A stretch of 64,000 bases of DNA from Beggiatoa alba B18LD. Lineage in GTDB: Bacteria > Pseudomonadota > Gammaproteobacteria > Beggiatoales > Beggiatoaceae. The notes under the pieces are model-generated. The model did no database searches and was not told where the DNA came from. It saw only the letters and a list, made by a program, of their open reading frames with translations. Of this stretch, positions 34,565-41,299 are shown one piece after another (within the stretch, counting starts at the first letter, position 1; each line of letters opens with the position of its first letter). The position numbers and the translations under genes were made by a program. Location: the NCBI RefSeq assembly GCF_000245015.1, contig NZ_JH600070.1:186001-250000 (forward strand). Reading direction: 5' to 3'.

Positions 34565-35713
34565 TTGTTTGCTGAGCCTGCCCCTCAAGCGACAATAGCG
34601 TGTCGCTTGCAAGCCTTTCTCGATCACATTACAACCTTACCCGCCTCATTGGGGTATCCTTTAAATACGCAATTAGACGTTCATTTATTGCAAGATTTAT
34701 TGTCTCAGCCCTTACACAATGTGGGGAATCCTTGGACAGATCATAGTCGTCGCCATCCCAGTCATGTTTTTGAACGAGAAGTTTTACAGGCGTTAGCCGT
34801 GCTCTATGAGTTTCCAAATACTGAAACAGTCGCGGGTTATATTACGTCGGGTGGAACAGAGGGGAATTTATACGGTTTGTATTTAGCGCGGGAAAAATAT
34901 CCAACAGGAATTTTATATTTCTCTTGTGAAAGTCATTACTCTGTGCGTAAAAGTGCGCATTTATTGCGTGTGCCTTTTCAAGAAATTGCGACACAAGCAC
35001 AGGGAGAATTAGATTATCAAGCCTTAGCAACCGCATTACAGCCTGAACATCCTGCCATTTTATTATTGAATATTGGTACAACGATGAAAGGGGCAATAGA
35101 TAATCTGGAGATGGTGTTAAGTATTTTACAAGCAAAGGGCATTCAAGATTTTTATATTCACTGTGATGCGGCTTTATTCGGCATGACATTGCCATTTATT
35201 CCACAAGCCACTTATCCCACTTTTCGCTATCCAATACAAAGCCTTTCTATTTCTGGGCATAAATTTTTAGGTGCGCCCATGCCCTGCGGGATAGTGTTAT
35301 GCCGTCCTCAAATGGTTGCTAATATTGCACGTCCTATCAACTATATTGACACGATAGACACGACTTTATCAGGCTGTCGTAATGGACACACTCCGATTAT
35401 TCTCTGGTATGCCTTACAACTTAAAGGCTATACGGGCTTACAGGCAGAAGTTGCGCAATGTTTAGCCCATGCGCAATATTTGGAACAACAATTACAGGCG
35501 ATGCACTATCCCTGTTTTCGTCATCCGCATTCAATAATTGTCGTTTTAAAAAAACCGCCACAAGTTTGTATTGAAAAATGGCAACTTGCTGTTGATGGTG
35601 ATTGGGCGCATATCGTTGTTATGCAACAAGTACAACAGAAAATACTGGATCAATTTTTAACCGATTTGCGCGATAACCTTGCCACGCCCGTTATATCCTC
35701 CGAACTGGTGTAA
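34565..35713 (+). CDS. PLP-dependent histidine decarboxylase-like enzyme
   Basis: Group II decarboxylase fold. Motifs: YITSGGTEGNLYGLYLARE, FSCESHYSVRKSAHLLRV, CDAALFG with the PLP-binding Asp, and SISGHKFLGAPMPCG with the Schiff-base Lys near residue 233. The length (382) equals bacterial PLP-type histidine decarboxylases, which make histamine from histidine. The start is a TTG at 34565, since no in-frame ATG precedes the core and GAGGTGAACG lies about 10 bases upstream. Substrate could be another amino acid. It is followed by glxB- and glxC-like genes. Confidence 0.82.
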   Translation: MFAEPAPQATIACRLQAFLDHITTLPASLGYPLNTQLDVHLLQDLLSQPLHNVGNPWTDHSRRHPSHVFEREVLQALAVLYEFPNTETVAGYITSGGTEGNLYGLYLAREKYPTGILYFSCESHYSVRKSAHLLRVPFQEIATQAQGELDYQALATALQPEHPAILLLNIGTTMKGAIDNLEMVLSILQAKGIQDFYIHCDAALFGMTLPFIPQATYPTFRYPIQSLSISGHKFLGAPMPCGIVLCRPQMVANIARPINYIDTIDTTLSGCRNGHTPIILWYALQLKGYTGLQAEVAQCLAHAQYLEQQLQAMHYPCFRHPHSIIVVLKKPPQVCIEKWQLAVDGDWAHIVVMQQVQQKILDQFLTDLRDNLATPVISSELV

Positions 35714-35813
35714 CGCTTGCTTAATCTTGCTTAACAAATGAATATCAGCGTTAAATTGTGACATCCTGTCTTAATATCAGGACAGATTAACCCTCAAGGA
35801 GCTTTTTAAACGC

Positions 35814-36713
35814 ATGTGTGGCATTGTTGGCTTATTTACAAAAAATGTACGGCTAGAACCGCAACTCGGGGCATTACTCTCCGCGATGCTGGTTGATATG
35901 GGAGAACGCGGTTCAGACAGCACAGGCATTGCCATCTATAAAGACCAAGTTCCACAGCCTGCAATGAAACTAACCCTATATCACCCTTCTAATAATTATG
36001 ATTGGGTACGTTTAGGCGAAATTGTGACAAAAAACTTCGGTGGCAAGGTTAATTTATCTATACGCACTAATCATGCAGTTATCACCGTGATGGAATCCCT
36101 AGACGTGATTAAACGCTGGATGCATCAACAATTTCCCGATGTTCGTCTGATGAGTGCGGGCGATACGATAGAAATTTACAAAGAAACAGGCACAGCGGCT
36201 GATTTCGTAGAACATTTTAACCTGCACGAACTACATGGCACTCATGCACTGGGTCATACCCGCATGGCAACAGAAAGCGCGATTACCACCGAACATGCCC
36301 ACCCCTTTACGACAGGGCTAGACTTATGTCTCGTGCATAACGGCTCTTTATCTAATCACAATCGGCTTCGCCAACAACTCTGTCGACGCGGGATTGAATT
36401 TGAAACAGATAACGATAGCGAAGTCGCCGCAGGTTATCTGACATGGCAACTCTCACAAGGCGCGACACTGGATCAAGCCCTAGAATCTGCCCTAAAAGAT
36501 ATCGACGGTTTCTACACCTTTGCAATAGGCACACGCGATGGCTTTGCCGTCTTACGTGATCCCATCGCTTGTAAACCTGCCGTGATGGCAGAAACAGACG
36601 ACTGGGTTGCCGTTGCCTCTGAATATCGAACCATCGCCCACCTGCCTAATGCCGAAAATGCCCGAATTTGGGAACCCGCCCCCGCAACTATTTACAGTTG
36701 GCACAGAACTTAA
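35814..36713 (+). CDS. GlxB/MgsA-like class II glutamine amidotransferase subunit
   Basis: The protein begins MCGIVGLFTKN with Cys2 as the glutaminase nucleophile and has RGSDSTGIAIYKD, THALGHTRMATESA and LCLVHNGSLSNHNRLR. At 299 residues it is the free-standing amidotransferase domain of glutamate synthase, as in GlxB or MgsA of N-methylglutamate synthase. It should release ammonia from glutamine for a partner. GlxC follows. The FMN subunit GlxD/MgsC is not in the window. Confidence 0.88.
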   Translation: MCGIVGLFTKNVRLEPQLGALLSAMLVDMGERGSDSTGIAIYKDQVPQPAMKLTLYHPSNNYDWVRLGEIVTKNFGGKVNLSIRTNHAVITVMESLDVIKRWMHQQFPDVRLMSAGDTIEIYKETGTAADFVEHFNLHELHGTHALGHTRMATESAITTEHAHPFTTGLDLCLVHNGSLSNHNRLRQQLCRRGIEFETDNDSEVAAGYLTWQLSQGATLDQALESALKDIDGFYTFAIGTRDGFAVLRDPIACKPAVMAETDDWVAVASEYRTIAHLPNAENARIWEPAPATIYSWHRT

Positions 36714-36734
36714 AACGACTCTTTGGAAAATATT

Positions 36735-37409
36735 ATGTCAATGATTGATTTAGACCAAAGCACTGTCCGCGAATTAAATCAACGCTTACATCAACAAGAT
36801 GTCATACAAACGCAATGGCAAATAAAAAACCCACGCGGCAAACATAATATTGCAGTTGGGGTTATGCACCCTGCAACTATCCATATTGATGGACATGTTG
36901 GCTATTACTGTGGCGGGATGAATCAACTGGCTACCCTCAATATCAATGGCAATGCAGGTTCTGGCGTCGCGGAAAATATTATGTCGGGACGGGTACACAT
37001 CAAAGGCAACGCATCACAATACGCAGCCTCTTCAGGACATGGTGGATTAGTTGTGATTGAAGGTGATGCAAGCTCACGCTGTGGCATCTCTATGAAAGGC
37101 GTTAATATTGTTGTTGGTGGCTCAGTGGGTCATATGAGCGCGTTTTTAGCACAAAAAGGTTGCCTTGTTGTCTGTGGCGATGCGGGAGAAAATTTAGGCG
37201 CATCCTTATATGAAGCAGTGATTTATGTGCGTGGAAAAGTCAGCAGTTTAGGCGAAGCCTGCATCGAAAAACCCATGCACTTAGAACATATCAATCAACT
37301 ACAAGCGTTATTAATACAAGCAGGCATAAATGCTAATCCAACAGACTTCCGTCGCTATGGCTCTACACGTCAACATTATCATTTTTATAGTGCGGCATTA
37401 AACAAATAA
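36735..37409 (+). CDS. GlxC/MgsB-like subunit (glutamate synthase GXGXG domain)
   Basis: Repeats such as HIDGHVGYYCGGMNQLATLN, HIKGNASQYAASSGHGG and GGSVGHMSAFLAQKG are the right-handed beta-helix of the glutamate synthase C-terminal GXGXG domain, as in GlxC or MgsB. The start is the ATG at 36735; a TTG at 36723 would add four residues. It follows glxB by 21 bases. A family A repeat follows after about 33 bases, where the third subunit gene would be expected. Confidence 0.87.
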   Translation: MSMIDLDQSTVRELNQRLHQQDVIQTQWQIKNPRGKHNIAVGVMHPATIHIDGHVGYYCGGMNQLATLNINGNAGSGVAENIMSGRVHIKGNASQYAASSGHGGLVVIEGDASSRCGISMKGVNIVVGGSVGHMSAFLAQKGCLVVCGDAGENLGASLYEAVIYVRGKVSSLGEACIEKPMHLEHINQLQALLIQAGINANPTDFRRYGSTRQHYHFYSAALNK

Positions 37410-37725: not shown

Positions 37726-38481
37726 TTATTCAAACGTTGACGCTTCGTTATTCTTTTCTTTCTCCTGCTCTTTTTCCTTCTTTTCAACAACAAGTAGTTG
37801 TGGATTTTTTAATTTTTGTTCACTACTTAATACAGCTTGTAGTAATACCCACGCCTCTTTATTTTCCTGTTCGTAATGTTGAATCGTTTTTAACATACGC
37901 TGTTGCGATTTTTGCGTGATTTGCGTGGAAATACTGAAAGGTTTTCCGCGTGGGTTGGCAAGCTCAATTTGCCAATCAATCTCTGGTTTACGACTGGGTT
38001 GACGTAAAGATTTTGGCAATTTTGAGGAGAGAATTGGCAGGGTAACTTTAACCGCTCGGACAGGAATCACTGCTGTGTACTTGTCGGTTGCCGCTGATTC
38101 TGCGCTGCTTTTAACCTGTAGTGGATTTTTACGCCGTTCTTTAAAAGAAGAAACCTGTTCCGCTGTCACTTCGCCAACAATATTACCTTCTAAATCAACC
38201 CGTTTACTGCCTTGTGTTTTGATTAAGGTTTGATATTGCGAGTCATGACAGTAGAGGCAAATGGCGGCACTGATGCGTTTAAAACTTAAGTGTTCAGGTA
38301 AGTCATTAGAACCATCTGGCTTTTTTAAATAGCGACTGATGTCTTGACGAATGCCAACCGCAAGCGCGTATTTAATTTCGCCTTGGGAAAAAAATGCCTT
38401 GGGAAAACGTTCACGTAAAAAGTTAAGGGCTTCTTGGGTTTTATCTTTGGTTAATAAAGGGTTTTGAGTTGGGTCTTGCAT
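37726..38481 (-). CDS. ProQ/FinO family RNA-binding protein
   Basis: ProQ/FinO proteins bind structured small RNAs and mRNA ends. The FinO domain covers residues 10-115 (ALNFLRERFPKAFFSQGEIK, GIRQDISRYL, ISAAICLYC). The C-terminal half is basic and lysine-rich, ending in a charged KEKEQEKEKNNE tail, as in longer ProQ forms. 251 residues. It follows dusA by 3 bases, so both are probably co-transcribed. Confidence 0.88.
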   Translation of the reverse strand: MQDPTQNPLLTKDKTQEALNFLRERFPKAFFSQGEIKYALAVGIRQDISRYLKKPDGSNDLPEHLSFKRISAAICLYCHDSQYQTLIKTQGSKRVDLEGNIVGEVTAEQVSSFKERRKNPLQVKSSAESAATDKYTAVIPVRAVKVTLPILSSKLPKSLRQPSRKPEIDWQIELANPRGKPFSISTQITQKSQQRMLKTIQHYEQENKEAWVLLQAVLSSEQKLKNPQLLVVEKKEKEQEKEKNNEASTFE

Positions 38482-39580: not shown

Positions 39581-40864
39581 CTAAACATATTTTGATTGTA
39601 GCTCTTGAGATTGGCGCATTTTAACGACGATGAATGTAATATCATCTGCAATTTTAGTTAATCCAATATGTAATTGAATATCAGCGACTATTTTTTGTTG
39701 AATTTCGTTAGCCGATAAATGCCAATAATGGCTAATGACTTTACATAAGCGGTCAACGCCGTACTGTGTGCCTGCTTTATTGCGTGCTTCAGTTAATCCA
39801 TCGGTATAAAGTACAACGCCCTCTCCGGGGACTAAGTCGCGTTCTAACTTGGTGACAAAGTTTGTAATATCACGTTCAATGCCGACTAAAAATCCCATGT
39901 CTATCGTGTCTATGCGTTCAACTTCGCCATCATGATGGACAATTAAAACCTCTTCATGTTGTCCACTGAGTCTGAACTTGCCTTGCTGATAATCCATGAA
40001 TAATAGGCTTAAATTTTTGTCAGATTGCATACGTTTAACATTGTCATAAACCACTTGATTCAGAATATTAAAGAATAGCTTGGGGTCGTCGATACGACTA
40101 TTCAGTAAGGTTCTTACGGCGGTTTGTACCATCAGCATAACAACACCACTTTCTAACCCATGTCCTGTAACATCACCAATACCAATTTTAACTTTCCCAT
40201 GCTCTTGCAAAATATCGTAGTAATCGCCTGCGACTTCGGTTGCGGGTTGCATATAGCTCGCTATGTCGAGTTCTTCAATATTGCTTAATTCTTCAGGACG
40301 TGGAAGTACCATCTGTTGCAGTTGACGACTAACCGCAAGCTCTGCCCCCATACGAATATTTTCTTGCGCTAATTGCTGATTTAATTTTGAAATTTCTAAA
40401 TAAGCATTGCTCAAATCCTCCGTTTTTTCGCGCAGGGCTTGTTCGGAAAGGCGGAGCTTTTCTTCTGAACGAATGCGTTCGGCGATTTCTGCTTGTAATT
40501 TGCTGGGGCTTGGTGCTTCTATGGCGTAGGGAATGAGCGGGACAAGGAGGAAAAGGAAAACATAAAAGGAAATGCTGGCATTAATAAAACCAAGCCAACC
40601 ACTCACCCAATAAGCGGGATACCAAAAGGTAACAATTTGTAAAAGATGCGTTGTTCCACAAATGGCAAACACTAAAAATGTACCAATTAATAGCCATTGT
40701 GTATTTTTAGGTAAATCATTGCGTCCATGGGTAAAATAAACAATTGCACCTGCAACAGCGTAGTAAGCTAATGCAGTGATGGCATTACTAATGACGTGTA
40801 AAGCGAGTAAATCAGGTAGCCAAGAAATACAATAGCCGTGTGGTAAGAAGTCATTAAATAACAT
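39581..40864 (-). CDS. PP2C-type (SpoIIE-like) phosphatase with an ethylene-receptor-like membrane domain
   Basis: Residues 15-115 form three membrane helices like plant and cyanobacterial ethylene-binding domains: FLPHGYCISWLPDLLALHV, ITALAYYAVAGAIVYF and FAICGTTHLLQIVTFW. Cys69 and His73 match the Cu(I)-binding Cys and His of ETR1, and Tyr34 matches Tyr32. Asn27 stands where ETR1 has Asp25. A coiled coil (115-175) links to a SpoIIE/PP2C phosphatase with GDYYD, GDVTGHG, LYTDGLTEA and ADDITF intact. The role is probably membrane sensing of a small hydrophobic ligand coupled to Ser/Thr dephosphorylation, perhaps of an anti-sigma partner. The ligand is not known. Confidence 0.85.
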   Translation of the reverse strand: MLFNDFLPHGYCISWLPDLLALHVISNAITALAYYAVAGAIVYFTHGRNDLPKNTQWLLIGTFLVFAICGTTHLLQIVTFWYPAYWVSGWLGFINASISFYVFLFLLVPLIPYAIEAPSPSKLQAEIAERIRSEEKLRLSEQALREKTEDLSNAYLEISKLNQQLAQENIRMGAELAVSRQLQQMVLPRPEELSNIEELDIASYMQPATEVAGDYYDILQEHGKVKIGIGDVTGHGLESGVVMLMVQTAVRTLLNSRIDDPKLFFNILNQVVYDNVKRMQSDKNLSLLFMDYQQGKFRLSGQHEEVLIVHHDGEVERIDTIDMGFLVGIERDITNFVTKLERDLVPGEGVVLYTDGLTEARNKAGTQYGVDRLCKVISHYWHLSANEIQQKIVADIQLHIGLTKIADDITFIVVKMRQSQELQSKYV

Positions 40865-41299
40865 GGTTTTTTCCTCATTATTATTCTTGCTAAAAATCCA
40901 TTGCGTCCATTTTGATTGATGATGGTGCGCATTTTTCTAAAGTTTTATGCGTAAATTAGTAAAAGTGAGTAATAACGTTGCTTTTAGTCATTTAAACAAA
41001 GCAAATAGATGCAATCTATCGCTACCTATAAGCAATACCCTAGTGTAAAACTCGGACAATAACAACTGAAGATAATTTGTAGGATGGGCAAGAAAGAGAA
41101 AAAAAGGAAAGAAACGGAAAGCGGTTGTGTGATTAAACGGCTGTTTGTTTGATTATTAGCGATATCGGCTGACCGTTAGAAAAAATATTTTTTAAAATCC
41201 TATCAATATTTAAGACATCGTCTAATCTTGTTATTTTACTAGAGTGGTGCATAATATACGTTTTTCTAACAGCAGATAGGATTTTTAAAAGAGCGGAAT
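40865..41299. other. Divergent promoter region between the phosphatase and infA
   Basis: There are 435 bases between two divergent starts. Apart from the infA promoter at 41228-41255, I see only AT-rich DNA. No repeat or ORF is evident. Confidence 0.5.
41228..41255 (+). promoter_or_regulatory. Probable sigma-70 promoter of infA
   Basis: TTGTTA (41228-41233) and CATAAT (41250-41255) are 16 bases apart and match the -35 and -10 boxes at 4 of 6 and 5 of 6 positions. The expected start is near 41262, leaving a leader of about 40 bases before the infA ATG at 41300. Confidence 0.5.

Follow-up and report, generated by a model that had tools for sequence, protein, structure and literature searches.

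Does a membrane protein of the sulfur bacterium Beggiatoa alba B18LD that joins an ethylene-receptor-like domain to a protein phosphatase respond to ethylene, and to which partner does it signal? The question is raised by a gene in a window of 64,000 nucleotides (contig NZ_JH600070.1, positions 186,001 to 250,000), whose product is called here the window protein. An earlier note, made from the sequence, suggested that it may sense ethylene, another small olefin or the copper state. The reading that we favour, with confidence somewhat above even, is that of a copper-dependent sensor controlling the dephosphorylation of a STAS phosphoprotein, its olefin pocket being rebuilt and its ethylene response weak at most.

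The gene and its two domains

The open reading frame is real and lies on the minus strand, which was absent from the earlier note. The gene and the domains of its product are arranged as follows:

39581..40864, minus strand: whole gene, a membrane-bound PP2C phosphatase of 427 amino acids with an ethylene-receptor-like sensor (open reading frame, translation, Pfam, 86% identical homologue)
40872..40876, minus strand: GAGGA, probable ribosome-binding site, 7 bases before the ATG (sequence)
40520..40810, minus strand: ETR1_N or ethylene-binding-like domain, residues 19-115 (Pfam 6.9e-22; predicted membrane helices 17-45, 53-78 and 85-116)
40310..40507, minus strand: long single-helix linker, residues 120-185 (AlphaFold helix, without a Pfam domain)
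39617..40201, minus strand: SpoIIE-type PP2C phosphatase domain, residues 222-416 (Pfam 1.4e-34, acidic motifs, Foldseek)

In the Pfam search of the window protein, the N-terminal part belongs to the ETR1_N family (PF25487; 78 bits, cut-off 27, E 6.9e-22). It has the three membrane helices expected of this family, with Cys and His at the copper positions in helix 2. The sensor also matches the AzoEtr1 locus of Azospirillum brasilense (plasmid matches with E 5e-18 and 4e-18) and is 33% identical to AzoEtr1 over 132 aligned columns. Together with the tree described below, these matches bear out the proposal that the first three helices are ethylene-receptor-like and exclude an unrelated membrane family. 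A profile search of the genome found this ETR1_N domain to be its sole one.

The AlphaFold model (46 sequences, mean pLDDT 90.4, pTM 0.67) consists of the three membrane helices, one helix of 66 residues (120-185) and then an alpha/beta domain, the phosphatase. Neither HAMP nor PAS was found in linker residues 120-185 by the Pfam search. The output is a SpoIIE-type PP2C and not a histidine kinase, as had been suggested: the SpoIIE profile (PF07228) matches residues 222-416 with 120 bits (E 1.4e-34), and the metal-binding Asp motifs of PP2C (PPM) phosphatases are present as GDYYD at 213 (just before the Pfam match), GDVTGHG at 230, YTDGLTE at 353 and ADDIT at 406. The closest solved structure to this domain is SiaA-PP2C (6k4e, Foldseek E 9e-14), and the PP2C domains of RsbU and RssB match the fold as well.

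A protein 86% identical to the window protein is encoded in a second genome of the Beggiatoa genus. Between the two, dN is 0.107 and dS 1.61 over the whole gene (dN/dS about 0.07), with 0.113 and 1.31 over the sensor (about 0.09). These low ratios indicate purifying selection on both halves of the protein.

The neighbours of the gene are dus, a proQ-like gene, infA and genes for an LMW phosphatase and an EamA protein. An operon with them was rejected, as infA is on the opposite strand, the next genes are housekeeping ones and the neighbours in the second Beggiatoa genome are other genes. Promoter and terminator scans around the gene gave results no better than shuffles, and the viral contigs searched held no relatives of the window protein. 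The minus strand at 37726-38481 encodes an RNA chaperone of the ProQ/FinO family that is extended at its C-terminus by a long segment. Window positions 34565-37409 carry, in a row, a gene for a PLP-dependent decarboxylase, one for a glutamine amidotransferase of class II and, separate from it, one for a GXGXG domain of the glutamate-synthase type.

The ethylene site and its evolution

The residues of the ethylene site were assigned against AzoEtr1 of A. brasilense Sp7 (525 amino acids), whose numbering of D35, C75, H79 and K98 is that of the published protein (PMC11819568). The alignment gives the following positions:

40658..40660, minus strand: Cys69, equivalent of the copper ligand Cys65 of ETR1
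40646..40648, minus strand: His73, equivalent of His69 of ETR1
40763..40765, minus strand: Tyr34, equivalent of Tyr32 of ETR1
40784..40786, minus strand: Asn27, at the position of Asp25 of ETR1
40751..40756, minus strand: Val37-Ala38, replacing Ile35-Pro36
40589..40591, minus strand: Gly92, at the position of Lys91 of ETR1 (the partner of Asp25 in ETR1)

Cys69 and His73, within the motif ICGTTH (residues 68-73), occupy the copper positions and Tyr34 is in place, in agreement with the earlier note; in AzoEtr1/ETR1 the counterparts are C75/C65, H79/H69 and Y42/Y32, and for Asn27 D35/D25. The ETR1 sequence agrees with the AzoEtr1-based assignment at every site. In all, ETR1 positions D25, Y32, I35, P36, I62, C65, H69 and K91 are N, Y, V, A, L or F, C, H and G in the window protein. 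The assignment at Ile62 is uncertain: every member of the clade of the window sensor carries two extra residues, either between this position and Cys69 or in the preceding loop, and their placement decides between Leu and Phe. The insertion may change the helix register. Placing Phe at the Lys91 position (helix 3 slid by two residues and anchored on IIP) was ruled out by sister sequences that keep the Lys (GWLKLFNA against GWLGFINA), and these give Gly92.

Seven residues of ETR1, D25, Y32, I35, P36, I62, C65 and H69, are reported to be essential for ethylene binding (PMC6586836). Three of the seven (Tyr, Cys and His) are certain in the window protein, which does not have the full set of a functional ethylene receptor. 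At least three and probably four are altered (25, 35, 36 and probably 62), in addition to Lys91. AzoEtr1 binds ethylene, and a polar pair Asp25-Lys91 is predicted for ETR1 (PMC11819568); with Gly92 this pairing is absent. The replacement of an important Asp by Asn27 thus stands, but not as the sole important change, since I35V, P36A, the Ile62 region and K91 to G92 also differ. With these changes, tight, high-affinity sensing of ethylene by the window protein is unlikely; of the signals proposed earlier, a low-affinity olefin or a copper signal may apply.

The tree was built from 136 distinct sensors and 95 columns, leaving out positions 25 and 91; many of its deeper forks are unresolved and the bootstrap had not settled. 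The window sensor falls in a clade of eight rows with support 100/100, which comprises the two genomes of the Beggiatoa genus, Thiomargarita, two Thiotrichaceae paralogues, Thioploca (a single gene entered as two rows) and Microcoleus vaginatus WJT46. The named close relatives, Thiomargarita, Thioploca and Thiotrichaceae MAGs, accord with the sulfur bacterium assumed in the earlier note. Cys, His and Tyr are invariant throughout the clade and Pro36 is absent from all eight rows, P36A being the common change. Within the clade, Asp25 and Lys91 were lost only in the two Beggiatoa-genus sequences.

In M. vaginatus WJT46-NPBG5 (L080), the ethylene-like domain is part of a sensor kinase of 1720 amino acids and is 61% identical to the window domain. 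Its position inside the sulfur-bacterial clade may stem from transfer of the gene between organisms that form mats, or else from misbinning. A further observation concerns the order of genome G289, probably methanotrophs (sister sensors in Methylovulum and Methyloprofundus), where ETR1_N occurs in 156 of 301 genomes, with up to six copies; in the sample of the class, 16 of 369 genomes have it.

Across the tree, Asn25 occurs in 15 of the 136 sensors (for example L098, L131, L151, L037 and the window protein), and none of these has Lys91: the residue is Arg in nine, Glu in two, Asp in two and Gly in two. Lys91 is present in 112 of the 119 Asp25 sensors. By parsimony Asn25 was gained about eight times, the copper ligands being kept. 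Of the tree length, 12.3% belongs to branches whose tips all lack Lys; when eight gains were placed at random by branch length 200,000 times, no placement put all of them on such branches, and six or more fell there with a frequency of 8e-5. An independent-pairs sign test of the two positions gave p 0.25 from three informative pairs only and was underpowered. Where position 91 is Asp, Glu or Gly, either of the two changes may have come first. Fifty further sensors of one order, 30 of them top-scoring and the set not independent of the 136, comprised 43 D/K, six N/D or N/E and one H/L. As a pattern in sequences, the mutual exclusion of Asn25 and Lys91 supports the predicted Asp25-Lys91 pair.

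The phosphatase and its candidate partners

In Pseudomonas aeruginosa, SiaA and SiaB balance the phosphorylation of SiaC and so control biofilm formation (PMC7647112). Both other phosphatases of the clade that carry an ethylene-binding domain (EBD-PP2C) are encoded beside or near SiaB and SiaC. In Thiomargarita (L201) the EBD-PP2C is SiaA-like (7.1e-71) and is followed, 15 bases on, by genes for a kinase of the SiaB family (2.7e-60) and for a phosphoprotein of the SiaC type (3.5e-29, below the equivalog cut-off). In Thiotrichaceae S06.Bin195 (L077), homologues of SiaB and SiaC are encoded 2.4-3.3 kb upstream of the EBD-PP2C, on its strand. The window phosphatase is of a different subfamily from these SiaA-like sisters, and thus the SiaBC link does not transfer to it directly. 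It resembles SiaA of the SiaABCD system as a membrane-bound PP2C with, as proposed here, a STAS-like phosphoprotein as counterpart. Unlike SiaA, it has a different sensor, no SiaB, SiaC or SiaD beside its gene, and 47 bits against the cut-off of 700 for the equivalog family NF038263 of NCBIfam.

Phosphatase domains 46-58% identical to that of the window protein immediately precede a kinase gene and a STAS gene of the slr1658/slr1659 type (NCBIfam NF047703 and NF047705) in four relatives (L012, L014, L017 and L020), the assignment in L012 being confirmed by NCBIfam. The literature searched gave no description of the function of this pair. Unlike these relatives, the window gene adjoins no such pair and its product has an ETR1_N sensor. 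Its own genome contains two pairs, neither with an adjacent phosphatase: one at L197 1988-2943 (NCBIfam 5.5e-86 and 3.6e-49) and one at L199 5743-6751, assigned by BLAST. Since the subfamily precedes these genes in relatives and two phosphatase-less pairs occur here, an slr1659-type STAS protein is proposed as the substrate. As the window gene stands alone, its partners are deduced from those relatives.

The earlier note called for a search for anti-sigma partners. An RsbW-type module was found once in this genome, at L195 3989-6034, where an RssB-like REC-PP2C, a STAS protein and an RsbW-like kinase follow in a row as a complete classical partner-switch module. It is the less likely partner, having its own REC-PP2C, which aligns to the window protein over only 83 residues with 22% identity; the slr1658/slr1659-type pairs, and SiaB/SiaC in the sister genes, are better candidates. 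The genome (4.27 Mb) has 22 SpoIIE domains, all on one contig, most of them 50-60% identical to the phosphatase part of the window protein and located on proteins of different length. To judge from their lengths, these proteins probably carry different sensors, and the domains may share or divide partners.

Possible signals and mechanism

A true high-affinity ethylene receptor with a phosphatase output, otherwise like ETR1, SynEtr1 or AzoEtr1, would agree with the ETR1_N domain, with the kept copper ligands and Tyr and with ethylene binding by the homologous A. brasilense domains (PMC11819568). It is nevertheless improbable with positions 25, 35 and 36 (probably also 62) changed among those essential in ETR1 (PMC6586836), with Ala at position 36 as in the alanine scan, and with Lys91 lost too. 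The Asp-to-Asn form of ETR1 is reported to work still, with affinity about 100-fold lower (PMC13012798), which speaks against a high-affinity receptor and for a low-affinity sensor of ethylene or olefins where these are locally abundant, as they might be in microbial mats or decaying matter. About eight origins of Asn25 with the copper ligands kept likewise suggest that this residue is tolerated, perhaps selected. Such a sensor is conceivable but rather unlikely, as Pro36 and the Ile62 region are altered too, the proposed coupling is gone without Lys91, and the neighbourhood examined yielded no ecological or gene-neighbour link to ethylene.

Sensing could also have been lost, leaving the sensor half merely to anchor and dimerise a constitutive phosphatase. 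Several otherwise conserved residues are gone and the genome is rich in paralogous phosphatases, but the sensor dN/dS of about 0.09, the invariance of Cys, His and Tyr across the clade and the coordinated, non-random loss at positions 25 and 91 make this improbable.

In the copper-dependent reading that is preferred here, the window protein would be a dimeric inner-membrane sensor with a three-helix domain presumably descended from bacterial ethylene receptors. Cu(I) is probably still held through Cys69 and His73, as is assumed from these two residues. With both the pocket for olefins and the signalling pair Asp25-Lys91 rebuilt, the ethylene response would be weak at most, and the signal would more likely be another ligand or the copper state. 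Helix 120-185 would pass the change to the PP2C and turn it on or off by dimer rearrangement, the direction of the response being conjectural. SiaA-PP2C was described as a dimer (PMC7647112), and helical linkers that order, dimerise and switch the PP2C were shown for RsbU and proposed as general for other sensors (PMC12143880). The continuous helix between sensor and PP2C fits this scheme. The phosphatase would remove the phosphate from a small slr1659-type STAS protein phosphorylated by an slr1658-type partner kinase encoded elsewhere in the genome, and dephosphorylation would switch the binding partner of the STAS protein.

The window protein has in common with ETR1, SynEtr1 and AzoEtr1 (PF25487) the three membrane helices, the CG.TH copper motif and the Tyr32 equivalent, and with the bacterial ethylene receptors also the N-terminal motif PHG.C. 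It differs from them by having Asn instead of Asp25, Val-Ala instead of Ile35-Pro36 and Gly instead of Lys91, by the two-residue insertion before the copper Cys and by the PP2C replacing the histidine kinase. The order of N-terminal sensor, helical linker and PP2C output is that of the RsbU/RsbP/SpoIIE-type sensors (PMC12143880), but the ethylene-receptor-like membrane sensor is absent from the sensor types shown there. ETR1_N and SpoIIE are also combined in one protein in an Eremiobacterota MAG (L152). Unlike the window protein, this EBD-PP2C-HATPase fusion keeps all eight canonical residues, adds an RsbW-like kinase (HATPase_c_2) and lies outside the clade; it apparently arose independently and, if a high-affinity ethylene receptor with a partner-switch output is sought, makes a better candidate than the window protein. 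The literature searched gives histidine kinases as the outputs of ETR1_N. A full-text search found no 'ethylene-binding domain' together with SpoIIE; subscription reviews were outside its reach and may hold an earlier mention.

Within that literature, an ETR1_N domain feeding a Ser/Thr phosphatase switch is an output not found for this domain. The covariation of positions 25 and 91 provides independent evolutionary support for the pair predicted in plant ETR1 and predicts that the plant D25N change is possibly compensated by K91R, K91E or K91D. The clade is a natural series in which the residues of the ethylene pocket disappear in steps, Pro36 at the first and both Asp25 and Lys91 at the second, with the copper ligands kept throughout. 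Such a series makes it possible to tell apart what copper, ligand binding and signal coupling each contribute. Tentatively, and with less confidence than for the mechanism above, sulfur bacteria that form mats may share with one or more cyanobacteria a branch of the ethylene receptors that kept the copper site, changed its ligand (to the copper state or to a pi-acceptor gas other than ethylene) and uses Ser/Thr partner switching instead of a histidine kinase for its signal.
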